DNA of 64,000 bases, taken from contig DXBP01000049.1 in NCBI GenBank assembly GCA_019116445.1, forward strand, positions 1-64,000, in the 5' to 3' direction. A model generated the notes under the pieces. It worked only from the letters and a program-made list of their open reading frames with translations. It was not told the DNA's origin and did not search any database. Source of the stretch: Candidatus Gemmiger excrementigallinarum (GTDB lineage Bacteria > Bacillota > Clostridia > Oscillospirales > Ruminococcaceae). A program made the translations under genes and the position numbers. Shown in pieces: positions 3,809-16,878 of the stretch. Numbering within the stretch: the first letter of the stretch is position 1; the number at the start of each line of letters is the position of its first letter.

Positions 3809-5663
3809 AAACAGCAGCACCTACCGCCGTGCCTGGGTACTCAACCTGCGGGCGTGGAAACTCTGGGCCGAAAAAAGCCCCGCCTATTTTGTGTCCACCT
3901 TGCTCAGCGCGGCGGGGCTGGCCCTGGCGCCTTATGTGACCATCTGGCTCTCCGCCCGCATCATTGCCGAACTGGCCGGCGGGCGGGACCCCCGGCAGCT
4001 GGCCTTCTGGGCGGTGCTCACGGTGAGCGCTACGGCGGGGCTGGCGTTGCTCAACGGGCTGCTCAAGCGGTGGGCTGCCTATGAGCAAACCCGGCTCTAC
4101 CCCCGCATAAAACAACACCTTTCCGGCAAAATGCTGGGCATGGACTATGCCCAGATGGACCGGCAGGAAGTCTACGACCTCTACAGCCAGATCGTGCAAA
4201 ACGACACCTGGGCCGGTTTCGGGCTGGCCCAGACGCTGGGATTCTTTCCGGATTTCTGCAAAGCGGCGGCCCAGATCCTGGGCGGCATCGGCTTTACGCT
4301 CACCCTCTTCCTCACCGATGTGCCGGCGGGCAGCCCGCTGGCGGTGCTCAACGGCCCCCTGGCGCTGGTGGGGGTGCTGGCGGCCATGGTGGGGGCGGTG
4401 CTGGCCTCCACCGCCTGCGTCAATGAATCCGGCCTGCGCATGAGCCGTCAGGCGGCGAATATGCGCCTGGCCAACCGGTATTTCAACTTCTACGGCGTTA
4501 TGGCACTGGACCACAAGCGGGCCGCCGACCTGCGGATGTACAATCAGCAGGAGGAAGTCTGCCACCACTATATGCAGAACAATGCCTTCAGCCGGGGCGG
4601 CGCCCTGGCCCGGCGGGCCATGGGGGACGTGGGCCTGCTGCGGGCGTTGGCCCAGGCCCTCTCGGCGGTGCTCACCGGCGTGGTGTATCTTTTTGTCTGC
4701 CTTAAATCCTGGGCCGGGGCCTTTGATGTGGGCGCCGTCACCCAGTATGTGGGCGCTGCCACCCAGCTCTTCGGCGGCATCTCCCAGCTGCTGCAAACCA
4801 TGGGGGATATCCGCGCCAACGGCGTTTTTCTGGAACGGGTGTATGAATATCTCGACCTGCCCAACCCCATGTACCAGGGCAGCCTGACTACCGAAAAGCG
4901 GGCCGACCGCAACTATCAGGTGGAATTCCGGGATGTTTCCTTCCGCTACCCCGGCAGCGACCGCTGGGCGCTGCGCCATGTGAACATAAAGTTCCGCATC
5001 GGCAGCCGGCTGGCGGTGGTCGGCCCCAACGGCAGCGGCAAGACTACCTTCATCAAGCTGCTCTGCCGCCTGTACGACCCCACCGAGGGCGAAATTCTTC
5101 TGAACGGCATCGACATCCGCAAATACCGCTACGAGGAATACCTGGCCCTCTTCTCGGTGGTGTTCCAGGACTTTAAGCTGCTGGCCCTGCCTTTGGGCGA
5201 GAATGTGGCCGGTGCCGCCGACTATGACCGCGCCCGGGCCGAGCGCTGCCTGCGGGATGCGGGCTTCGGCGAGCGGCTGGACGCCATGCCCAAAGGCCTG
5301 GACACCTATCTTTACAAGGACCTGGACAAGGAAGGCGTGGAGATCTCCGGCGGCGAAGCCCAGAAAATCGCCATCGCTCGGGCGCTGTACAAGGACGCGC
5401 CCTTCCTGGTGCTGGATGAACCCACCGCCGCCCTGGACCCCATCGCCGAGGCGGAGGTCTACGCCAGCTTTGACGCCATCGCCGGGGACAAGACCGCCCT
5501 CTACATCAGCCACCGGCTGTCCAGCTGCAAGTTCTGCGACGCCATCGCGGTGTTTGACGGCGGGGCCATCGTCCAGACCGGCAGCCACGAGGCGCTGGTG
5601 GCCGACGAAGAGGGCCTGTACCACCAGTTGTGGCAGGCCCAGGCACAGTATTATAACGAATGA
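3792..5663 (+). CDS. ABC exporter half-transporter (permease-ATPase fusion), second subunit
   Basis: 623 residues with the same layout as its upstream neighbour: about six membrane helices (residues 30-340), then an ATPase domain with Walker A GPNGSGKTT at G411, the signature ISGGEAQK at I518, Walker B FLVLDEPTAALDP and H-loop ISHRLSS. Both subunits keep the Walker B glutamate, so neither ATPase site looks degenerate. The ATG at 3792 follows GGAGGGGAGC inside the end of the previous gene. A strong terminator follows at 5736. With the LytTR/GHKL pair upstream, this looks like a regulated exporter cassette; no precursor peptide or lantibiotic-modification gene is visible beside it. Confidence 0.9.
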   Translation: MAKSSENSSTYRRAWVLNLRAWKLWAEKSPAYFVSTLLSAAGLALAPYVTIWLSARIIAELAGGRDPRQLAFWAVLTVSATAGLALLNGLLKRWAAYEQTRLYPRIKQHLSGKMLGMDYAQMDRQEVYDLYSQIVQNDTWAGFGLAQTLGFFPDFCKAAAQILGGIGFTLTLFLTDVPAGSPLAVLNGPLALVGVLAAMVGAVLASTACVNESGLRMSRQAANMRLANRYFNFYGVMALDHKRAADLRMYNQQEEVCHHYMQNNAFSRGGALARRAMGDVGLLRALAQALSAVLTGVVYLFVCLKSWAGAFDVGAVTQYVGAATQLFGGISQLLQTMGDIRANGVFLERVYEYLDLPNPMYQGSLTTEKRADRNYQVEFRDVSFRYPGSDRWALRHVNIKFRIGSRLAVVGPNGSGKTTFIKLLCRLYDPTEGEILLNGIDIRKYRYEEYLALFSVVFQDFKLLALPLGENVAGAADYDRARAERCLRDAGFGERLDAMPKGLDTYLYKDLDKEGVEISGGEAQKIAIARALYKDAPFLVLDEPTAALDPIAEAEVYASFDAIAGDKTALYISHRLSSCKFCDAIAVFDGGAIVQTGSHEALVADEEGLYHQLWQAQAQYYNE

Positions 5664-5735
5664 TCAAAGAGGGGAACCGTGCCGCACGGCGGTGCCCGGC
5701 GGCGAACAGATTTCCGCTTTTTGCCCGCCTATAAC

Positions 5736-5768
5736 GGACACAGCTTTCGGCTGTGTCTGTTTTTTTTT
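5736..5768 (+). terminator. Intrinsic terminator after the ABC exporter
   Basis: An 8-bp stem GACACAGC/GCTGTGTC (5737-5744 with 5750-5757) and 5-base loop are followed by a run of nine T at 5760-5768. Confidence 0.85.
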
Positions 5769-5788
5769 ACGTTTTTTACCGAAAACCG

Positions 5789-5817
5789 ATGACATTGCCC
5801 CCGAACTGTGCTATACT
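5789..5817 (+). promoter_or_regulatory. Near-consensus sigma-A promoter for pepF
   Basis: ATGACA at 5789-5794 (5 of 6 consensus) and TATACT at 5812-5817 (5 of 6) are separated by 17 bases, 90 bases before the pepF start. Confidence 0.75.
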
Positions 5818-5907
5818 AGAGTCGTTACTGTGCGCCATGCGCACACAAACGCCCAAAAAAACGGGCTGCGGCCCCGGTCGCAGCTATACAATAAAGGAGT
5901 GGAATCC

Positions 5908-7710
5908 ATGGCAGAGAACCTTCGGGAACGCAGCCAGCTGGAACCGGCCTATACCTGGCAGATCACCGATCTGTACCCCACCGACGACGCCTGGCGGGCG
6001 GACTATGAGCGCCTGCAGGGCGTTCTGAAGCAGCTGGCCGGCTACAAAGGCCGCCTGGGCGAAAGCGCCGCCACGCTGCTGGCGTTTTTGCAGCTGCAGG
6101 ATCAGGTACTGGCGGACGGCGACCAGCTGCTGTCCTACGCCTACCGCAAAACCGACGAGGATACCCGCCAGCCGGTGTATCAGGAGATGAGCGCCCAGGC
6201 CGATAACTTCGAGGTGGAATGGGAGCAGGCCCGCGCCTTCCAGACGCCGGAACTGCTGGCCATCCCCGAGGAGCGCCTTGCTTCCTTTTATAAAGAGGAG
6301 CCCCGGCTGGAGCATTACCGCCTGATGCTGGACCGCATCCGCAGCAAAAAGGAACACACCCTTTCTCCCGAAGGGGAGCAGCTGCTGGCGGCTGCCGGCA
6401 GCATGGGCCAGGCCCCGGGCAACATCTTTGCCCTGATGAACAACGCCGACCTGACCTTTGAGGATGCGGTGGACAGCCAGGGCAACGCCCATGCGCTGAG
6501 CCACGGCAGCTACATCGCCCTGATGGAGTCCGACGACCGCGCCCTGCGGGCCTCGGCTTTCCGCAACCTGTACGCGGGCTACGGCAAGCTGAAAAACACC
6601 TGTGCCGCGGTGCTGGGCGCCCAGATGAAGCAGCTGCAGTTCTTTGCCGAAGCCCGGCATTACCCCACGGCGCTCCACGCGGCCCTGGCCGATACCGAGG
6701 TGCCGGTGGAAATTTACCACAACCTCATTGATACGGTGCACAAGAACCTGCCCGCCATGCACCGCTATGTGAAGCTGCGCAAGCAGCTGATGGGTGTGGA
6801 CGAGCTGCACTACTACGACCTGTACACGCCGATGGTGGCGGATGCCCAGATGACCGTGCCCTTTGCGCAGGGCAAGCAGCTGGCGATGGAAGCGCTGGCG
6901 CCCCTGGGCGAGGAGTACCTCTCCATCCTGAAAGAGGGCTTCGACAACCGCTGGATCGACGTCTACGAGAACGCGGGCAAGCGCTCGGGCGCCTACTCCG
7001 CCGGTGTGTACAACGCCCATCCCTTTGTGCTGCTCAACTACACCGACACCCTGGGCGATGCCTTCACCCTGGTGCATGAGATGGGCCACGCCCTGCACTC
7101 CTACCTCTCCAACCGGACCCAGAGTCCCACCTACGCGGGGTACAAGATCTTCGTGGCCGAGGTGGCTTCCACCTGCAACGAGGCGCTGCTCATCCGGTAT
7201 CTGCTGGGCAAGACCCAGGAGCCCAAGCAGCGGGCCTACCTCATCAACCACTTCCTGGAGCAGTTCCGCACCACCCTGTACCGGCAGACCATGTTTGCCG
7301 AGTTCGAGCTGTGGTGCAGCGAGCAGACCCGCCAGGGCAAACCCCTTACCGCCGATTCCCTGTGCGAAAAGTACGCCGAACTCAACCGCCAGTACTACGG
7401 CGAGGACATCGTCCCCGACCCCGAGATCGCACTGGAATGGGCGCGCATCCCGCACTTCTTCTATAACTTCTACGTTTATCAGTATGCCACCGGCTTTGCC
7501 AGTGCAGTGGCGCTGTCCCAGCGCATCCTGCGGGAAGGCCAGCCCGCCGTGGACGATTATCTGCGCTTCCTCAGCGGCGGCTGCTCCGCCGACCCCGTTA
7601 CCCTGCTGCAGGGAGCGGGGGTGGATCTGTCCACCCCGGCACCCGTTGCCGATGCCCTGGGCTATTTCGACAGCCTGCTGGACGAGATGGAATCCCTGCT
7701 GGCACACTGA
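5908..7710 (+). CDS. pepF: Oligoendopeptidase F (M3B metallopeptidase)
   Basis: 600 residues, the usual PepF length. It hydrolyses short oligopeptides in the cytosol. The zinc site is HEMGH (H390, E391, H394) with the third ligand E418 in VAEVASTCNE; the downstream region with RIPHFFYNFYVYQYATG is the conserved M3B substrate-binding segment. There is no signal peptide. The ATG at 5908 follows AAAGGAG by 8 bases and its own promoter. The oligopeptide ABC importer begins 213 bases downstream in the same direction, which fits uptake of peptides followed by their cleavage, although pepF has separate transcription signals. Confidence 0.95.
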   Translation: MAENLRERSQLEPAYTWQITDLYPTDDAWRADYERLQGVLKQLAGYKGRLGESAATLLAFLQLQDQVLADGDQLLSYAYRKTDEDTRQPVYQEMSAQADNFEVEWEQARAFQTPELLAIPEERLASFYKEEPRLEHYRLMLDRIRSKKEHTLSPEGEQLLAAAGSMGQAPGNIFALMNNADLTFEDAVDSQGNAHALSHGSYIALMESDDRALRASAFRNLYAGYGKLKNTCAAVLGAQMKQLQFFAEARHYPTALHAALADTEVPVEIYHNLIDTVHKNLPAMHRYVKLRKQLMGVDELHYYDLYTPMVADAQMTVPFAQGKQLAMEALAPLGEEYLSILKEGFDNRWIDVYENAGKRSGAYSAGVYNAHPFVLLNYTDTLGDAFTLVHEMGHALHSYLSNRTQSPTYAGYKIFVAEVASTCNEALLIRYLLGKTQEPKQRAYLINHFLEQFRTTLYRQTMFAEFELWCSEQTRQGKPLTADSLCEKYAELNRQYYGEDIVPDPEIALEWARIPHFFYNFYVYQYATGFASAVALSQRILREGQPAVDDYLRFLSGGCSADPVTLLQGAGVDLSTPAPVADALGYFDSLLDEMESLLAH

Positions 7711-7923: not shown

Positions 7924-9825
7924 ATGAAAAACAAGAGACTTTTGTCCTTGCTGGTCGCGGGTGCGATGACTGTTTCTCTGGCTGCCTGCGGCGGTCAGGG
8001 CGCTGTCACCAACAACCCCACCGAGAGCACGGACACCAGCACGGCGGAAACCAGCGCCGAACCCACCAGCGAGCGTCCGACTGAGCCTTCCGGCCAGTTG
8101 GTCATCGGCTCCATCACCCAGGTCGTCAACGAGTTCTACGACACGTCGTTCAACAACAACGCCACGAACTACATGATGTATGACCTGATCCATGGCTGCG
8201 ACACCGTCACCTACACCATGGAAGGCGAGTTCGCGTTCGACGACACCGTTCTGGCTTCCCACGAGGAGACCGAAAACGAGGACGGCAGCAAGACCTACAC
8301 CATGAAGATCAAGGACGGTCTGGTCTGGAGCGACGGCTCTCCCATCACCGCCAAGGACTACGTCTTTGCCCTGCTGTGCGAGTGCAGCGATGAGATGACC
8401 GGTGTGGACGGCTACCCCGGAAACACCTACACCACCATCGTCGGCTACGACGAGTGGCATGACGGCACCGCCGATACCTTCGCGGGCGTCAACCTCATCG
8501 ACGATATGACCTTCTCCATCACCGTCAAGGCGGAAGAGCTGCCCTACCACTGGGATATCTCCTACGCTGCTGTCCGTCCCCGCCCGATGGCTGTCATCGC
8601 CCCGGGCTGCGATGTGGTCGGCGGCGACAATGGCGCCAGCATCACCGGTGACTTCACCACCGAGCTGCTCCAGGAAACCATCAACAACATCGATACCGGT
8701 TACCGTTACAACCCGCAGGTCACCTGCGGTCCCTACCTGTTCGCGGGCTTCGATGAGGCCGGCCAGCAGGCGACCCTGAAGGTCAACCCCAGCTACCACG
8801 GCGACTACCGCGGTGTGAAGCCGGTCATCGAGACCCTGGTCGTGCGCACCGTTTCCAGCGACACCATGATGAACGAGCTGGAAGCCGGCACCGTTGACCT
8901 GCTGTACGAGTGCTCCGGCGCCGACACCATCAACGCCGGTCTGGACCTGGTGGAAGAGGGCGTTGCTGCCGACACCACCTACTACCGCAACGGTTACGGC
9001 AAGGTCCAGTTCGACTGCAGCCAGTTCCCCACCGACAGCCAGAACGTGCGCCAGGCCATCGCCTACTGCCTGGATCGTAACGAGTTCGCCCGCCAGTACT
9101 CCGGCGGTTACGCCGCTGTGGTGGACGCTGCCTACGGCCTGGCCCAGCCCGAGTACACCGAGAACTCCGACTGGCTGTCTCAGAACATGAACCACTACGA
9201 GATGAACCTTGACACCGCCAAGCAGCTGCTGGAAGAGGACGGCTGGACTCTGAACGCCGACGGTACTCCGTACTCCGGCACCGGCACCCGCTACAAGGAT
9301 GTCAACGGCGAACTGAAGCCCCTGGTCATCACCTGGGCCAACACCTCCGGCAACCCCGTTTCCGACCTGCTGTCCACCATGCTGCCCACCAACATGGCTG
9401 AAGTCGGTATGGAACTGCAGCCCACCACCATGGACTTCGCCACCCTGCAGGCTGCCATCAGCCATGAGGGCGACACCATCTACAACATGTACAACCTGGC
9501 TACCGGCTTTGCCACCGCCAACTCCCCGTGGTACAACTACTCCGAGGACCCGCAGTGGATGACCGCCGGCTACAACTCCAACTGGATCGCCGACAGCGAG
9601 CTGTCTGACGCCGCCGGTGCCATGAAGAGCATCCCCTATGCCGACACCGACGCCTGGATGGAAGCCTGGCGCAACTACATCCAGATCTGGAACGAGAAGC
9701 TGCCGGATATCCCCCTGTACTCCGATGAGTACTATGACTTCTACTCCACCAAGCTGCAGGGCTGGTACAACTCTTCCATCTGGGGCTGGCAGCGTGCCGT
9801 TCTGGATGCCTGGGTTGCTGAGTAA
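7924..9825 (+). CDS. Oligopeptide ABC transporter substrate-binding lipoprotein (family 5)
   Basis: 633 residues. A lipoprotein signal (MKNKRLLSLLVAGAM, lipobox SLAAC) gives lipidated C22, followed by a Thr/Ser/Glu-rich linker to about residue 58 and then an SBP_bac_5 (OppA/DppA-like) fold with the typical KDGLVWSDG and RQAIAYCLDR segments. It captures peptides outside the membrane and delivers them to the two permeases downstream. The ATG at 7924 follows AGGAA in a good context. A strong hairpin after the stop probably limits transcription into the permeases so that the binding protein is made in excess. Peptide specificity cannot be read from sequence; nickel or other family 5 ligands are less likely because the ATPases are Opp/Dpp type. 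Confidence 0.92.
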   Translation: MKNKRLLSLLVAGAMTVSLAACGGQGAVTNNPTESTDTSTAETSAEPTSERPTEPSGQLVIGSITQVVNEFYDTSFNNNATNYMMYDLIHGCDTVTYTMEGEFAFDDTVLASHEETENEDGSKTYTMKIKDGLVWSDGSPITAKDYVFALLCECSDEMTGVDGYPGNTYTTIVGYDEWHDGTADTFAGVNLIDDMTFSITVKAEELPYHWDISYAAVRPRPMAVIAPGCDVVGGDNGASITGDFTTELLQETINNIDTGYRYNPQVTCGPYLFAGFDEAGQQATLKVNPSYHGDYRGVKPVIETLVVRTVSSDTMMNELEAGTVDLLYECSGADTINAGLDLVEEGVAADTTYYRNGYGKVQFDCSQFPTDSQNVRQAIAYCLDRNEFARQYSGGYAAVVDAAYGLAQPEYTENSDWLSQNMNHYEMNLDTAKQLLEEDGWTLNADGTPYSGTGTRYKDVNGELKPLVITWANTSGNPVSDLLSTMLPTNMAEVGMELQPTTMDFATLQAAISHEGDTIYNMYNLATGFATANSPWYNYSEDPQWMTAGYNSNWIADSELSDAAGAMKSIPYADTDAWMEAWRNYIQIWNEKLPDIPLYSDEYYDFYSTKLQGWYNSSIWGWQRAVLDAWVAE

Positions 9826-9905: not shown

Positions 9906-9925
9906 AGGAAATGGGGGGAAACCGA

Positions 9926-10918
9926 ATGGGCAAAGGCCGCTACCTGGTCAAACGACTTGTCTATATCGTTTTCGTATTCTTTATCATCTCAATCTTGATG
10001 TTTTTCATCTACAAATCCATGCCCGGCGATCCTGTCACCATGATGCTGGGCGAGTCCCGCAACAGTATGAAACCCGAAGCCTACCAGGCTTTGTACGACC
10101 GTACCCGCCAGGAACTGGGTCTGGACAAACCGCTGGTGATCCAGTACCTGATCTGGATCGGCAACATGCTCACCGGTGACTTTGGCTACTCCACCCAGTA
10201 CAAGCGCCAGGTCATCGACGTCATCGGCACCCCGATGCTCAACACCCTGAAACTCAATGCCCTGTCCATGATCGTGACCTTCGTCGTCGCCATCCCGCTG
10301 GGCATTGCCACCGCCGTGCGCAAAAACTCCGTCTTTGACAAGTTCGTGCAGGTCATCACCATTGTGGGCTACAGTCTGCCCAGCTTCATCATAGCCCTGT
10401 TGTTTATCTTCGCCTTTGCGGTCAAGATCCCGATCTTCCCCATCAGCGGCGTGCAGACGGCAGGCTTTGAGGGCAACGGGTTCGAGATGGCCATGGATAC
10501 CCTGTGGCACATGGCCCTGCCGGTCATCGTCATGTCCATTTCGGGTATCGGTTCCATCACCCGGTATGTGCGCGCCGAAATGATCGACGTGCTGCGCATG
10601 GACTACATCAAGACCGCCCGGGCCAAGGGCCTGAAGGAAAAGACGGTCATCTACGTCCATGCCTTCCGCAACGCTTTGATTCCCATTGTCACCATCGCTA
10701 CGGCCTGGGTCGTTACCCTGTTCGGCGGTTCCGTCGTTATCGAGAACGTCTTCCTCTGGCCCGGCCTTGGCCAGATGCTGATCAACGGCCTGCTGCAGCG
10801 TGACTTCTCCATCGTATTGACGATGCAGATGTTCTACGTGGTGCTGTCGCTGACCGGCAACGTCATTATGGACATCGCCTACACCATCGTTGACCCGCGG
10901 GTCCGGCTTGAAAACTAA
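9926..10918 (+). CDS. Oligopeptide ABC transporter permease, OppB/DppB type
   Basis: 330 residues. The first helix (residues 9-30) is followed by the large OppB-type periplasmic loop and five further helices; the cytoplasmic EAA loop is EMIDVLRMDYIKTARAKGL, which docks on the ATPases. The conserved GDFGYST and SIPLG-like AIPLGIAT segments are present. ATG 9926 is preferred to ATG 9911: the AGGA before 9911 touches the start codon, whereas the GGGGGGA stretch is well spaced for 9926. It forms the translocation pore with the next, unusual permease. Confidence 0.9.
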   Translation: MGKGRYLVKRLVYIVFVFFIISILMFFIYKSMPGDPVTMMLGESRNSMKPEAYQALYDRTRQELGLDKPLVIQYLIWIGNMLTGDFGYSTQYKRQVIDVIGTPMLNTLKLNALSMIVTFVVAIPLGIATAVRKNSVFDKFVQVITIVGYSLPSFIIALLFIFAFAVKIPIFPISGVQTAGFEGNGFEMAMDTLWHMALPVIVMSISGIGSITRYVRAEMIDVLRMDYIKTARAKGLKEKTVIYVHAFRNALIPIVTIATAWVVTLFGGSVVIENVFLWPGLGQMLINGLLQRDFSIVLTMQMFYVVLSLTGNVIMDIAYTIVDPRVRLEN

Positions 10919-10932
10919 GGAGGTTCCTGACT

Positions 10933-12753
10933 ATGGCAAAGAAAAAGAAAGACGCCGGCAGGAAATCCACCGCAGCAGCGGCCGCCGAGCGTATGGTTAT
11001 GGGCGGTATGCCCCAGGAGGAACAGGACGACGAACTGATGCAAAGCCCCTTCCGGATGGTGGTTACCAGCTTCATCCGGGACAAGATCGCCATGATCGGC
11101 TTGTGCGCCTTCACGTTCATCTTCCTGTGCTGCATGATCCTGCCCTTCTTCTTCCCGATCGAAATGAACTATCAGGATGTCACCCAGGCCAACGTGGCCC
11201 CGGGCTTCGGCATGCTGAACATCCCCTCCGCCCTGAAGAACAACGCCCTGGATATTGCCGCGGGCAGCACCTTCTCGGTGGGGATTGACCGGGACGGCAA
11301 CGTCTACGAGTGGGGCACTTTCCCCACCGATAAGCTCAAAAAGATCCCTTCCAGCTCCGAAATGGGCAAACTGACCATGATCTCGGCGGGTCTGGACCAC
11401 GTGGTCGCCGTCAACGAGAACAACCAGGTCTTTACCTGGGGCAACGACCGTATGGGTCTGGCCAGCATCCCCATCGAGCTGAAGACCAACACCTCGCCCA
11501 TCAAGCAGATCTCGGCGGGCTACCAGATCTCTCTGGCCCTGACCGAGAGCGGCAAGCTCTACAACTGGGGCAGCACCTACCTGCTGAGCATCGTCGTGCC
11601 CGAGGGCGTGCAGGGCAACATTGCCCAGTTTGACGACAACCCCAACATCGTCATGGCGCTGACCAAGGACGGTGAGGTGGTCCCCCTGACCAACTCCACC
11701 AACTCCTACACCGCCGTGCCGGAAGAGATCCAGGGCCGCACCGTGGACCTGGCCCTCTCTGACGAGAGCGCCGCGGCTGTGACCGATGACGGCCATGTGT
11801 ACACCTGGGGCAACAACGTCTATGGTTCCATGAACGTGCCCGAGGAGATCCAGGGCCGCGTGACCGAGATCGAGGGCGGCCGCTATCACTTCACGGCCAT
11901 CCTGGACGACGGCACCGTCTGCACCTGGGGCAACGATAACTTCGGCCAGACCGACGCGCCCTCCTTTGACGGCGCCGTTACCGACGTGGCGGCGGGCTAC
12001 TACGCCAGCTACGCCATCGACGAGAACGGCCAGGCCAAGGGCTGGGGCCTGGACGGCTACCTGATGGGTACCGACCAGCTGGGCCGTGACGTCTTCCGCC
12101 GTCTGCTGGTGGGCGGCCGCATGACCATGACCGTCGGCTTCATCGCCGTCATCATCTCCACCTTCATCGGTGTTCTGGTGGGCGGTGTTTCCGGCTACAA
12201 GGGCGGCAAGATCGACAACCTCCTCATGCGTCTGACCGAGATCGTTTCTTCCATTCCCTTCCTGCCCTTCTGTATCATTCTGTCCAGCATCCTGGGCAAC
12301 AGCATCGACGAAACCCAGCGTATCGTGCTCATCATGTTCATTCTGGGCCTGCTTTCCTGGCCCGGTATTGCCCGCCTGGTGCGCGGCAGCGTGCTGGCCG
12401 AGCGTGAGCAGGAGTTCGTCACCGCCGCCAAGGCGTTGGGCGTCAAGGAGTTCGGCATCATCCTGCGCCACATCCTGCCCAACATCATCACCGTCATCAT
12501 CGTCAACGCCACGCTGGACTTCGCCACCTGCATGCTGACCGAATCCAGCCTGTCCTTCATCGGCTTCGGCGTTACCGAGCCCAACGCCACCTGGGGCAAT
12601 ATGCTCAACGGTGCGCAGAACGGCCAGGTTATCGAGAACTACTGGTGGCGCTGGCTGTTCCCGTCCATTGCGTTCGGCATCTGCACCATCAGCATCAACT
12701 GTGTGGGCGACGGCCTGCGCGATGCCATTGACCCCAAATCGAAGGAGAGGTGA
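10933..12753 (+). CDS. Oligopeptide ABC permease (OppC/DppC type) with inserted seven-repeat RCC1-like propeller
   Basis: 606 residues, about twice the usual DppC length. Residues 1-50 are a charged cytoplasmic tail, 52-74 the first helix. The family normally continues after a short loop with HPLGTDQLGRD; here that motif is at 377-386 (LMGTDQLGRD), and about 300 residues lie between. Residues 106-376 hold seven repeats of 39-43 residues with the RCC1 pattern (AAG..H..AL...G.VY.WG), starting near 106, 148, 191, 231, 271, 311 and 350, a full beta-propeller set. Repeat 4 is degenerate. The remaining permease is intact, with EAA loop EFVTAAKALGVKEFGIILRH. By topology the propeller is extracytoplasmic, where the binding protein docks; it could aid docking, gate access or bind peptide, wall or mucus ligands (inference). 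The frame is uninterrupted and base use matches its neighbours. Confidence 0.93.
   Translation: MAKKKKDAGRKSTAAAAAERMVMGGMPQEEQDDELMQSPFRMVVTSFIRDKIAMIGLCAFTFIFLCCMILPFFFPIEMNYQDVTQANVAPGFGMLNIPSALKNNALDIAAGSTFSVGIDRDGNVYEWGTFPTDKLKKIPSSSEMGKLTMISAGLDHVVAVNENNQVFTWGNDRMGLASIPIELKTNTSPIKQISAGYQISLALTESGKLYNWGSTYLLSIVVPEGVQGNIAQFDDNPNIVMALTKDGEVVPLTNSTNSYTAVPEEIQGRTVDLALSDESAAAVTDDGHVYTWGNNVYGSMNVPEEIQGRVTEIEGGRYHFTAILDDGTVCTWGNDNFGQTDAPSFDGAVTDVAAGYYASYAIDENGQAKGWGLDGYLMGTDQLGRDVFRRLLVGGRMTMTVGFIAVIISTFIGVLVGGVSGYKGGKIDNLLMRLTEIVSSIPFLPFCIILSSILGNSIDETQRIVLIMFILGLLSWPGIARLVRGSVLAEREQEFVTAAKALGVKEFGIILRHILPNIITVIIVNATLDFATCMLTESSLSFIGFGVTEPNATWGNMLNGAQNGQVIENYWWRWLFPSIAFGICTISINCVGDGLRDAIDPKSKER
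11248..12060 (+). repeat. Seven tandem RCC1-like repeats within the permease gene
   Basis: Protein repeats of 42, 43, 40, 40, 40, 39 and about 27 residues, each with a (A/G)G.....A(L/V/I)...G.(V/L)Y.WG core. The last repeat is closed by the permease GTDQLGRD segment. DNA identity between repeats is moderate; VPEEIQGR recurs at the ends of repeats 4 and 5, which suggests a relatively recent duplication of that unit. Confidence 0.88.
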
Positions 12754-12759
12754 TCGACG

Positions 12760-13755
12760 ATGAGTTTGCTGGAAGTTAAGAACCTGCATACCTACTTTAA
12801 AACCAAAAAGGGTATCGTCAAGGCGGTAAACGACGTCACCTACTCTCTGGACGAGGGCAAGACGCTGGGCATCGTCGGCGAATCCGGCTCTGGCAAGAGC
12901 GTTTCTGCCATGAGCATCATCAAGCTGCTGGACGGCAACGGCTGGATCGAAAGCGGCAGCGTGACCTTCAACGGCCGCGACATCCTCAGCTGCACCGAGA
13001 AAGAGATGTACCACATCCGTGGTAACGAGATCTCGGTCATTTTCCAGGAGCCCATGACCAGCCTGAACCCGGTGTTCACCGTGGAGCGCCAGATCGGTGA
13101 GGTGCTGCGCATCCACCAGAATATGACCAAGAAGGAAGCCTACGCCAAGGCGGCGGCGCTGTTGTCGGATGTCAAGATCCCCAACCCCGAGCGGGTGGCC
13201 AAGCAGTATCCGTTCCAGCTTTCGGGCGGTATGCGCCAGCGCGTCATGATCGCCATGGCCCTGGCCTGCAAGCCCAAGCTGCTCATTGCGGACGAACCCA
13301 CCACCGCCCTGGACGTGACCATCCAGGCCCAGATCCTCAAACTGATGAACGACCTGAAGCGCCAGACCGGCACTTCCATCCTCTTCATCACCCATGACCT
13401 GGGCGTCATCCACGAGATGGCCGACGAGGTCGCCGTCATGTACTGCGGCCAGATCGTCGAGAAGGCCGACGCCAAGGAGATCTTCCACAAGTCGGTCTAC
13501 TCCCACCCCTACACCGAGGGCCTGATGATCTCCATTCCCCGGCTGAACACCCCCAAGGGCAAGCGCCTGGATGCCATTCCCGGTGCGGTGCCCAACCCCC
13601 TGTACCTGCCCAAGGGCTGCAAGTTTGCGCCCCGCTGCAAGTACTGCACCCAGAAATGCCTGGAGGAGGAGCCACCCCTGACCGAGGTAGGCCCCAACCA
13701 TCTGGTACGTTGCTTCTATGCGGAAAAGGCGGTGAGACAGCAGAATGCAAAATGA
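12760..13755 (+). CDS. Oligopeptide ABC transporter ATPase, OppD/DppD type
   Basis: 331 residues. Walker A GESGSGKS (40-47), signature LSGGMRQR, Walker B LLIADEPTTALD, and H-loop FITHDLGV. The C-terminal oligopeptide-transporter domain contains the cysteine cluster CKFAPRCKYCTQKC, which in Opp/Dpp ATPases is associated with an iron-sulfur site. The gene starts 6 bases after the permease stop and overlaps the next ATPase by 11 bases, so the operon is translationally coupled. Confidence 0.94.
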   Translation: MSLLEVKNLHTYFKTKKGIVKAVNDVTYSLDEGKTLGIVGESGSGKSVSAMSIIKLLDGNGWIESGSVTFNGRDILSCTEKEMYHIRGNEISVIFQEPMTSLNPVFTVERQIGEVLRIHQNMTKKEAYAKAAALLSDVKIPNPERVAKQYPFQLSGGMRQRVMIAMALACKPKLLIADEPTTALDVTIQAQILKLMNDLKRQTGTSILFITHDLGVIHEMADEVAVMYCGQIVEKADAKEIFHKSVYSHPYTEGLMISIPRLNTPKGKRLDAIPGAVPNPLYLPKGCKFAPRCKYCTQKCLEEEPPLTEVGPNHLVRCFYAEKAVRQQNAK

Positions 13756-14788
13756 GAACAAGGACCGCAAGGTACTGTTGGAGATCCGCGATGTGAAGCA
13801 GTACTTCCCGGTAAAAAAGACGAAATTCCGTGAAAAACAGCGCTATGTCCGCGCCAACGACGGCATCACGCTGGACATCTACGAGGGCGAAACCCTGGGT
13901 CTTGTGGGCGAGTCCGGCTGCGGCAAGTCCACCCTGGGCCGTACCATCCTGCAGCTGTATCCCCAGACCCACGGCGACATCCTCTACCACAAGGGCGAGG
14001 AAGTCATCGACCTGAAAAAGCAAAAGCCCGAACAGATGCGGGTGCTGCGCAAGGACCTGCAGCTGATCTTCCAGGACCCGTACTCCTCCCTGAACCCCCG
14101 CATGACGGTGGGCCAGATCATCGGCGAGGGCCTGACCTCCCACGGCATCTACAAGAAGAACGACCCCGCCATGAAGGAATATATCTTCCGCATCATGGAA
14201 GAGTGCGGCCTGGCTTCCTATATGTTCAACCGGTATCCGCACCAGTTCTCCGGCGGTCAGCGCCAGCGCATCGGCATCGCCCGCAGCCTGGCCTTGAACC
14301 CCAAGTTCGTGGTCTGTGACGAGGCGGTCTCCGCCCTGGACGTTTCCATCCAGTCCCAGATCCTGAACCTGCTGTCGGACCTGAAGAAGAAGGCGGGCCT
14401 GACCTACCTCTTCATCACCCACGACCTGAGCGTGGTCAAGTACATCAGCGACCGCATCGCCGTTATGTACCTGGGCAACCTGGTGGAGCTGGCCAACGCC
14501 GAGGAGCTGTTCAGCGATACGCTGCACCCCTACACCGAAGCGCTGCTCTCCGCCATCCCCACCACCGATGAGGACAACGGCGGCCGCAAGCGCATCTTGC
14601 TGGAAGGCGACATCCCCAGCCCGGTGAATCCGCCGGAGGGATGCAAGTTCCACACCCGCTGCCGTTTCTGCCAGGAAAAGTGCAAGCACGAAGTCCCCGA
14701 ATGGCGCGAGATCACGCCCGGTCACTTTGTGGCCTGCCACTTCCCCCTGCATGAGAACAACACCGTCACCGGTGAGGTCATCGAGTAA
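13745..14788 (+). CDS. Oligopeptide ABC transporter ATPase, OppF/DppF type
   Basis: 347 residues. Walker [10 protein letters not shown] (55-63), signature FSGGQRQR, Walker [13 protein letters not shown] (glutamate present, proline replaced by alanine as is common in OppF), H-loop FITHDLSV. The C-terminal domain ends with the cysteine cluster [14 protein letters not shown]. It pairs with the upstream ATPase as the second motor of the importer. The ATG at 13745 lies within the end of that gene. Confidence 0.94.
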
Positions 14789-15076: not shown

Positions 15077-15118
15077 AAAGCCCCGGTTCCTGTGCCTGTG
15101 CACAGGAACCGGGGCTTT
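15077..15118. terminator. Bidirectional terminator between importer operon and GH13 gene
   Basis: A 19-bp stem (15077-15095 with 15100-15118) has a 4-base loop. T-rich tails occur on both sides, serving the converging genes. Confidence 0.88.
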
Positions 15119-15133
15119 TCTTTTACCGGGGAA

Positions 15134-16822
15134 TTATTCCATCCACAGCACCAGCAGCTGGTAGCCTTCCAGCGTCACGGCGCCGTCGGCGATGGCGGCG
15201 GTGTCGCAGTTGTTCAGCAGCACCTGCTTCACGGCGCCGGGCAGCGGCACGGTCTGGGCTTCGGGCTGGAAGTTGCCCATCACCAGCACGGTATTCTTCT
15301 CGCCCTTGCGCAGGTAGGCCATCAGGTTCTTCTGCTCCACACGGTAGGGTACCGTTTCGCCGTAGATGATGGCGTCCTCCAGCTCGGATTTTTTCCGCAG
15401 CTGGATCAGCGTGCGGTAGAACTGGTACACCGAGTCGGGGTCATTGCGCTGGGCTTCCAGGTTGATCTCCTTGTAGTTGGGGTTCACGTGGAGCCAGGGC
15501 TTGCCGGTGGTAAAGCCGGCATTCTCGGTGGTATCCCACTGGAACGGCGTGCGTGCGTTGTCGCGGCTGAACATATTCACCGCGTCCATGGCCTGCTGTT
15601 CGGTCAGGCCGGCGTTCAGTGCCACCTGGTACTCGTCCCGGGCCGAGATGTCGTCCACCTCGTCGATGGAGTTCACCGCCAGGTTCTCCATGCCCAGTTC
15701 CTGGCCCTGATAGATGAAGGGCAGGCCGCGCAGCAGGAAGTTCAGGCCGCCCAGCATCTTTTTGCCGCGCACGGTGCACTCACCCTTGGGAATGTACCGG
15801 CTCACGCCGCGGGGTTCGTCGTGGTTCTCGATGATGTTGGAGAGGAACCCGTCGAAGCCCGCCACCTTTTTCTGGCTCTCGAAGCAGCAGGCTTTGTACT
15901 GTTCGGGGGTGATGGGCTTCTGGTCGTACCAGCCCTTGTCGCTGGCGTTGCAGACGGTTTCGTTGAAGTCGAACATGGAGGAGAAGTAGCCGTTGTCCCC
16001 GATGAATTCGGGCAGGTCCTCGTCGTTGACATAGAATACCTCACCGGCGGTGAAGGCATGGTGGGGGGTAAAGCAGCGGTCGGCCATCTCGCCCAGGAAC
16101 TGGCCGATGCCCTTGGCATGGTAGTTCATCGTGCTGATGGAGCACATACCGTCGCTGCGGTCGGCGGGGTAGTCGCGGTAGGGCAGTACCTTCTTGATGT
16201 TGATGATGGCGTCGATGCGGAAGCCCGCCAGGCCCTTGTCCAGCCACCAGTTGACCATCTTGTAGATCTCCTCCCGCAGTTCGGGATTCTCCCAGTTCAG
16301 GTCAGGCTGCTTTTTGTGGAAGGTATGCAGATAGATCTTGTCGGGGTGACCGGGCAGCGGCTCCCACACCGAACCGCCGAAGGCGGAACGCCAGTTGCAG
16401 GGCAGGTGTTCGCCGTCCCAGTCCTCGATGTAGAAGAAGCGGCCGTACCGGCCATCGGGGTCCTGGCAGGCCTTCTGGAACCATTCGTGCTCATCGGAGC
16501 AATGGTTCACCACCAGGTCCATCACGATGCCGATGCCGCGCTCCTTCGCCTTGGCGATGAGCTCGTCCATATCCTCCATCGTGCCGAAACGGGGGTCAAT
16601 GGCGCGGTAGTCCGAAATGTCGTAGCCGTTGTCCACCTGGGGGGAGGCAAACACCGGGGACAGCCAGATCACGTCGATGCCCAGCTCGGCCAGATAGTCC
16701 AGCCGCCGGATGATGCCCTGCAGGTCGCCGGTGCCGCTGCCGGTGGTATCCTGAAAGCTCTTGGGGTATACCTGGTAGGCCACCGCCCGGCGCCACCAGT
16801 TAGGTTGGGTTTTGTTCAGCAT
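15134..16822 (-). CDS. GH13 alpha-glucosidase (oligo-1,6-glucosidase / dextran glucosidase type)
   Basis: 562 residues, the normal length for GH13 subfamily 31-like cytosolic exo-enzymes. It removes glucose from the non-reducing end of alpha-linked oligosaccharides. Catalytic residues: nucleophile D204 in GFRIDAI, acid/base E261 in AGEVFY, and D335 in IENHDEPR. The N-terminus WWRRAVAYQVYPKSFQD is typical. There is no signal peptide. Exact linkage preference (isomaltose, sucrose, trehalose-6-phosphate) cannot be decided by eye. The ATG follows AAGGAAGGAA, with a good promoter upstream on the minus strand. No transporter or LacI regulator sits next to it. Confidence 0.9.
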   Translation of the reverse strand: MLNKTQPNWWRRAVAYQVYPKSFQDTTGSGTGDLQGIIRRLDYLAELGIDVIWLSPVFASPQVDNGYDISDYRAIDPRFGTMEDMDELIAKAKERGIGIVMDLVVNHCSDEHEWFQKACQDPDGRYGRFFYIEDWDGEHLPCNWRSAFGGSVWEPLPGHPDKIYLHTFHKKQPDLNWENPELREEIYKMVNWWLDKGLAGFRIDAIINIKKVLPYRDYPADRSDGMCSISTMNYHAKGIGQFLGEMADRCFTPHHAFTAGEVFYVNDEDLPEFIGDNGYFSSMFDFNETVCNASDKGWYDQKPITPEQYKACCFESQKKVAGFDGFLSNIIENHDEPRGVSRYIPKGECTVRGKKMLGGLNFLLRGLPFIYQGQELGMENLAVNSIDEVDDISARDEYQVALNAGLTEQQAMDAVNMFSRDNARTPFQWDTTENAGFTTGKPWLHVNPNYKEINLEAQRNDPDSVYQFYRTLIQLRKKSELEDAIIYGETVPYRVEQKNLMAYLRKGEKNTVLVMGNFQPEAQTVPLPGAVKQVLLNNCDTAAIADGAVTLEGYQLLVLWME

Positions 16823-16878
16823 GGGGGATTCCTTCCTTTCTTATAAAAAATAGGGTTGCGGTGGAGGTTTCTGTTTTG

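Follow-up and report, generated by a model that had tools for sequence, protein, structure and literature searches.

How an entire repeat domain of the RCC1 type comes to lie inside a membrane subunit of an oligopeptide importer, and what it might do there, is the question raised by one gene in the window, the 64,000-nucleotide stretch of DNA analyzed here. The gene (positions 10933-12753, + strand) is a single frame of 606 codons with zero internal stops, as had been reported in a preliminary description. An RCC1/BLIP-II-type repeat domain lies between the first transmembrane segment (TM1) and the GTDQLGRD motif of its OppC/DppC-type permease. Both parts belong to known families, and domain databases will presumably list the fusion automatically. 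Among the top matches in the open-access literature we found no description of the two in one chain.

The repeat domain and its place in the permease

The protein combines the hallmarks of the OppC/DppC family: the Pfam domain OppC_N at residues 38-90 (E 7.6e-10, 39 bits, cut-off 23.9), BPD_transp_1 at residues 413-603 (E 5.6e-34, 118 bits, cut-off 26.4) and the GTDxLGRD motif. TM1 (residues 52-70, positions 11086-11142), located by Pfam and hydropathy, falls inside OppC_N; the motif (residues 379-386, positions 12067-12090), located by frame and alignment, precedes TM2; and the membrane domain with BPD_transp_1 occupies residues 396-606 (positions 12118-12750), all on the + strand. The solved structures nearest to the membrane part are those of OppC and DppC, and the score against the Opp4C equivalog NF045476 (323.3 bits) is below its curated cut-off of 350.

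The inserted domain (residues ~91-376, positions 11203-12060, + strand) accounts for a match of the permease protein to RCC1_2 with E 3.6e-39 (132 bits, cut-off 22; six stretches above cut-off). A profile search of the PDB places BLIP-II nearest to the domain (E 2e-36), followed by UVR8, HERC2 and RCC1. No solute-binding protein (SBP) family was detected by Pfam inside the permease chain at E<=0.01. The window's own genome, which is 83% complete, contains six RCC1_2 matches, all of them within the permease gene.

The preliminary description had counted seven RCC1 repeats. The number stands: there are seven units of ~40 residues, and their identity, summed over 21 unit pairs and 23 core columns, is 139/483; shuffling the domain 2000 times gave 30 on average and never more than 55. 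One correction concerns unit 4, which is degenerate, with PLT in place of the xWG of other units and the WG lost, which is why Pfam counts six rather than seven. We place the start of the domain near residue 91 because the N-terminal GFGMLNIP that begins there resembles the outer 'VP' segment of the other units; as a seventh VP segment it would complete blade 7. Its P98 is invariant in 52 non-redundant relatives. Ring closure by an N-terminal segment that joins the last blade is usual for RCC1-type propellers.

The loop between TM1 and TM2 that bears the propeller is supported as extracytoplasmic by homology to OppC/DppC and by hydropathy, in agreement with the placement first proposed. TM-like 19-mers occur at residues 47-70 and next only from residue 391, with none above a hydropathy of 0.78 within residues 90-375, and loop residues 76-395 are acidic (18 K+R vs 40 D+E). 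Comparison with relatives that lack a propeller places the insertion after the 'NxxP' that ends the usual loop and before the GTD motif, with both flanks retained. From the last WG to GTDQLGRD there are six residues (373-378), and linker residues are highly conserved (P90 0.97, G375 1.00, Y376 0.83).

The likely orientation of the propeller can be considered by comparison with BLIP-II. All 15 BLIP-II contact residues taken from PMC10817188 fit the BLIP-II chain at an offset of 38, and they fall either after the strand-1 glycine (loop 1) or right after the WG (loop 2). From strand order, loops 1 and 2 would share one face. Loop 2 of blade 7 is where the permease chain would enter and exit the propeller. 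With both domain ends thus on the face that BLIP-II uses for its partner, this face should point to the transporter and the docked SBP. Conservation of the face loops is 0.60 (24 positions) in blades 6, 7, 1 and 2 vs 0.47 (21 positions) in blades 3, 4 and 5 (permutation p 0.0009), for a near/far grouping that was picked after the conservation values were known and that leaves out loop 2 of blade 7. Taken over all seven blades, the trend has rho -0.75 (p 0.05) and is weak; loop 1 by itself gives p 0.24, and loop 2 with blade 7 excluded p 0.49. The opposite turns, if anything, tend the other way (0.53 vs 0.57; rho 0.68, p 0.09).

Distribution and operon context

A peptide-pattern scan of genome contigs, whose reach included phyla outside Bacillota, yielded 39 confirmed loci: 32 full-length fusions, two fusions cut by contig ends and five propeller-less permeases, three of the latter from phyla other than Bacillota. 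Every full-length fusion (32/32) is a single frame of 605-647 codons from stop to stop with no internal stop. The holders include Gemmiger, Anaeromassilibacillus, Caccousia, Pseudoflavonifractor, Fournierella and metagenome-assembled genomes (MAGs) of Lachnospiraceae, as well as an Erysipelotrichaceae MAG whose fusion shows 39% identity.

The preliminary description had proposed that RCC1 and BPD_transp_1 be sought together in one chain and their spread mapped. With a propeller profile, the fusion was found in 24 of 247 genomes sampled from the window's family (36 have some match) and in 14 of 398 genomes of a phylum sample that includes the window's own genome (47 have some match). The fused frame was confirmed in 24/24 family genomes and in all 13 other phylum-sample genomes, one of which has it cut N-terminally by a contig end. 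Within the window's genus, where four genomes were sampled, two lack it. Of the 45 other genomes that match RCC1, 20 were checked for hidden fusions (8/12 family, 12/33 phylum), and none has a permease domain in-frame. Several phylum loci, among them L070, L071 and L072, carry related RCC1 repeats in frames of ~1200-1700 residues, a possible source of the domain. A plasmid-borne fusion was rejected: 2558 plasmid records have a match, with no single place that covers 80% of the protein.

We built a maximum-likelihood tree from the membrane domain with the propeller excluded (82 rows, quick search). All 38 propeller permeases placed on it group in a single clade (SH-aLRT 100), and the 44 others all fall outside. 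This single clade points to one insertion that has been retained since. Scores against the window's membrane domain in two samples leave a gap, with propeller permeases at at least 264 bits and all others at no more than 240.5.

These data also bear on an artefact of assembly or binning, which might be suspected since many relatives are metagenome-assembled. However, the fusion is present in genomes labelled as strains rather than as MAGs (Gemmiger formicilis An723, Gemmiger sp. An120 and Anaeromassilibacillus sp. An200), the 38 permeases form one clade, and frames are intact in 32/32 loci examined. Intact full-length fusions at 32/39 related loci exclude the assembly chimera about which the preliminary description had cautioned, and we regard an artefact of either kind as exceedingly improbable.

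The fused permease is the third gene of an oligopeptide importer operon on the + strand, the other members of which were identified with family profiles. A solute-binding lipoprotein (SBP_bac_5, Opp4A-like, 633 aa, lipobox LAAC) is encoded at 7924-9825, an OppB-type permease at 9911-10918, and the ATPases OppD and OppF at 12760-13755 and 13745-14788, respectively. An oligopeptidase F-like peptidase (M3) lies upstream (5203-7710, +). Further downstream, a 584-aa plus-strand frame (15092-16846) has an odd composition and no Pfam match and looks like the shadow of a minus-strand gene (15134-16822).

We surveyed the operon in 66 loci, window included, which represent 64 distinct permeases. The SBP gene adjoins the fused permease in 62 of these, and a lipobox-like motif is present in 59 of the 62 SBPs. 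Of the four loci that lack it, three (L117, L118, L139) are cut contigs. The fourth, L125 of genome G082, is a true exception; a 44% identical SBP (L203:3467-5398) is encoded on a different contig of G082, apart from the propeller-permease operon, and the 7.6 kb covered on that contig contain no Opp genes. OppB, OppD and OppF are absent only at contig ends; L034 and L123 do have an overlapping OppB, though one neighbor filter removed it. With the SBP adjoining so consistently, an orphan permease with the propeller as sole receptor is ruled out as the general case, and the built-in receptor suggested at first is weakened. A homologue of oligopeptidase F is found in 21/47 loci (on the opposite strand in L012) and in none of the 13 loci L115-L127.

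The SBP itself largely follows the fusion. When the window's SBP was searched in the 247 family genomes at E<=1e-30, 25 matched, of which 22 have the fusion, so that 22/24 fusion genomes of the family have a match. The two fusion genomes with no SBP match, G095 and G123, have the operon on contigs of 7116 and 3681 bases, respectively. The three matching genomes without the fusion (G030, G141 and G211) belong to one genus, and their E values (4e-49 to 7e-43) are similar to those of the fusion genomes with the weakest matches. In two of the three (G030 and G141; L204 and L205) the SBP relatives have no Opp transporter genes inside the fetched 14 kb.

As a separate observation, most propeller operons outside the window's closer relatives (L115-L145 and L037) have an OppF of ~490-560 codons (for example L115:871-2451 and L128:8736-10295). 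Between their Walker A region and Q-loop, these long forms carry a charged insert of ~130-190 residues, which the window's OppF lacks.

According to PMC12136057, DppB of E. coli DppABCDF bears a scoop in its TM1-TM2 loop that fills the cleft of the SBP and thereby seals the cavity, and DppB differs strikingly from DppC in TM1 and in two periplasmic regions, TM1-TM2 and TM3-TM4. The window's OppB aligns throughout the scoop segment of E. coli DppB. Since OppB retains this segment, the idea that the propeller substitutes for the scoop was ruled out.

Constraint and rate covariation

We estimated dN/dS in 18 hand-picked pairs, in which pairs with saturated dS yield no ratio. The propeller, the SBP and the membrane domain (TMD) have median dN values of 0.143, 0.149 and 0.029 and median dN/dS values of 0.14, 0.20 and 0.05, respectively. 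The propeller is thus under purifying selection, yet evolves at the pace of the SBP.

To assess rate covariation we compared residual branch lengths over the 85 branches of a tree of 44 operons, whose topology was derived from six parts jointly and then kept fixed. The propeller and the SBP covary with r 0.50 (p 1e-6), the second of 15 pairs. The first is OppD-OppF (r 0.62), the third TMD-OppB (0.44) and the fourth SBP-OppB (0.40). As these three are known contacts (the ATPase pair, the permease pair and scoop-SBP), their ranks argue that the test has some power. Values are lower for propeller-OppB (0.32), TMD-SBP (0.32) and the propeller with its own TMD (0.26), and they are near zero for the propeller with the ATPases (OppD -0.04, OppF 0.06).

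The signal persists in a rate-matched control in which the other subunits were limited to their fastest 40% of columns: propeller-SBP is 0.54, the propeller reaches 0.33 with the fast TMD columns and 0.32 with those of OppB, and the fast TMD-OppB pair drops to 0.27. A partial correlation of pairwise distances likewise gives 0.54 for propeller and SBP (5-95% of subsamples 0.36-0.66), with values for the propeller of -0.02 with the TMD, 0.03 with OppB, 0.03 with OppD, -0.08 with OppF and 0.23 with the N-terminus with TM1. The correlation is 0.32 without the 10 most influential branches and 0.30 (p 0.055) on internal branches only. Splitting the propeller and the SBP in order to locate a contact gave a mixed outcome, and the far half of the propeller covaries more strongly with the SBP (0.48) than the near half does (0.30). 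Shared extracytoplasmic exposure may cause part of the propeller-SBP covariation, a component that rate matching leaves in place. Of the roles proposed in the preliminary description, these data favor a docking platform.

Possible roles and known systems

We favor a reading in which the OppC subunit of an oligopeptide ABC importer (SBP-OppB-OppC-OppD-OppF) once gained a seven-bladed propeller that serves as a second, rigid clamp for the SBP, and we put its chances at about even. The fusion, its spread, the operon, the constraint and the rate covariation with the SBP are direct observations, from which we infer contact, orientation and an effect on transport. The RCC1/BLIP-II-type propeller would have entered the TM1-TM2 outer loop of OppC in a single event. 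As OppC is the pseudo-symmetric half of the permease pair, a propeller in this loop would stand beside the docked SBP, and as the DppB scoop lies in the TM1-TM2 loop and its segment is kept in OppB, the propeller would sit across the docked SBP from it. There it could hold or orient the SBP while the retained scoop segment of OppB would seal the cavity.

The same loop has been enlarged elsewhere, so that the short OppC loop assumed in the preliminary description holds only with a limit. A second OppC clade (L100-L102, L104-L107 and L170) carries an unrelated insert between TM1 and TM2 (for example L148:3464-5038, L152:5032-6831 and L153:5059-7155). There, 289-467 residues precede the GTD motif, vs 105-110 in three insert-free relatives, or ~180-360 extra residues. 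Kinship of this insert with the propeller was rejected: three scanned members have no Pfam match better than E 0.17, and a four-row profile matches no solved structure better than E 0.59. The SBPs of this clade have 689-796 aa in 7/8 loci (two cut by stretch ends) vs 588, 628 and 657 in three insert-free relatives, which, on a small number of cases, suggests that large loops are accompanied by changed SBPs. Length matching of this kind was rejected for the propeller clade, in which SBP length shows no rise with permease length (rho -0.29, p 0.06). A broader proposal, which we offer tentatively and consider rather less probable than a clamp in the propeller clade, is that the TM1-TM2 outer loop of OppC in gut Clostridia is a grafting site where unrelated domains have independently been installed as second SBP clamps, pseudo-symmetric to the DppB scoop. 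If true, this would be a modular way of tuning SBP capture in type I importers.

Other roles can be imagined for the propeller. It might be a receptor in its own right that feeds the importer by capturing a secreted peptidase, or else an extracellular protein or long peptide that comes from the host, the diet or the cell wall, with the covariation reflecting a ligand shared with the SBP. The extracytoplasmic location supported by homology and hydropathy and the nearby oligopeptidase F homologues are consistent with this, and BLIP-II, the nearest solved relative by sequence, is a secreted binder according to PMC9218822. However, the lipoprotein SBP is retained alongside, and domain ends on a BLIP-II-type partner face would turn that face to the transporter, and we consider such a receptor unlikely. 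Slightly less likely again is a gate or regulator of the OppB-OppC pair that holds TM1-TM2 or lids the entrance and leaves the SBP untouched. The highly conserved linker residues P90, G375 and Y376 are in its favor, and with just six residues from the last WG to GTDQLGRD the coupling to TM2 may be tight; against it, the propeller covaries less with its own TMD and with OppB than with the SBP.

The least probable of these roles, in our estimate, is that of a spacer or shield with no specific partner, which protects the transporter or keeps the lipoprotein SBP at a distance from the cell wall. Leaving out one frame cut by a contig end, permease frames at the 66 loci range from 604 to 689 codons, and the unrelated insert in the second clade indicates that bulk in this loop may suffice. 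Nevertheless, the window and 26 relatives align in just 623 columns for the 606 residues of the window, and the low dN/dS of the propeller and its covariation with the SBP also argue against mere bulk.

If the propeller is indeed a second clamp for the SBP, the importer bears its own protein-binding wheel where the delivery protein lands, and a ready-made binding fold, once grafted on, can strengthen or re-specify how the SBP docks in Opp/Dpp importers. The BLIP-II-like domain would then be a natural handle for measuring contacts between SBP and translocator in Gram-positive gut bacteria, in which the lipoprotein SBP is tethered.

The window permease shares OppC_N, GTDxLGRD, BPD_transp_1 and its operon mates with Opp4C and DppC/OppC permeases, which include relatives with solved structures (OppC 8z21, DppC 8z1v, Mycobacterium tuberculosis Rv1282c 8j5q and DppC 8wd9), and differs by ~285 extra residues, the RCC1-type domain, in the TM1-TM2 loop. 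By sequence, the domain belongs to the repeat family of the RCC1, UVR8 and HERC propellers. These are eukaryotic and soluble, and their repeats are longer. The short RCC1 repeats of BLIP-II (1jtd, 3qhy, 9t9p), the best solved match, are in the same register as those of the window domain; however, BLIP-II is a free secreted inhibitor, whereas the window domain lies inside a permease chain. The DppB scoop is a short helix-loop-helix of ~30 residues in DppB, whereas the propeller occupies the TM1-TM2 outer loop of the OppC half.

Among importers of other families, a comparable element is MalF-P2, to which a propeller clamp would be the peptide-importer counterpart, working similarly at another place and with another fold. 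MalF-P2 sits between TM3 and TM4, and its fold differs from that of a propeller. PMC3150292 describes MalF-P2 as an extracytoplasmic insert of ~180 residues (91-271) in one permease subunit that touches MalE. The window insert is likewise in one permease subunit, with its outer placement resting on homology and hydropathy, but it lies between TM1 and TM2 of a different importer family, and it may work like P2 without being a homologue. A further parallel is provided by importers that carry an extracytoplasmic module in the permease chain. In OpuA and GlnPQ this module is the SBP itself, fused at one end of the permease chain. The window permease shares such a module with them; however, it is a non-SBP domain inserted within the chain, and a separate SBP is kept.
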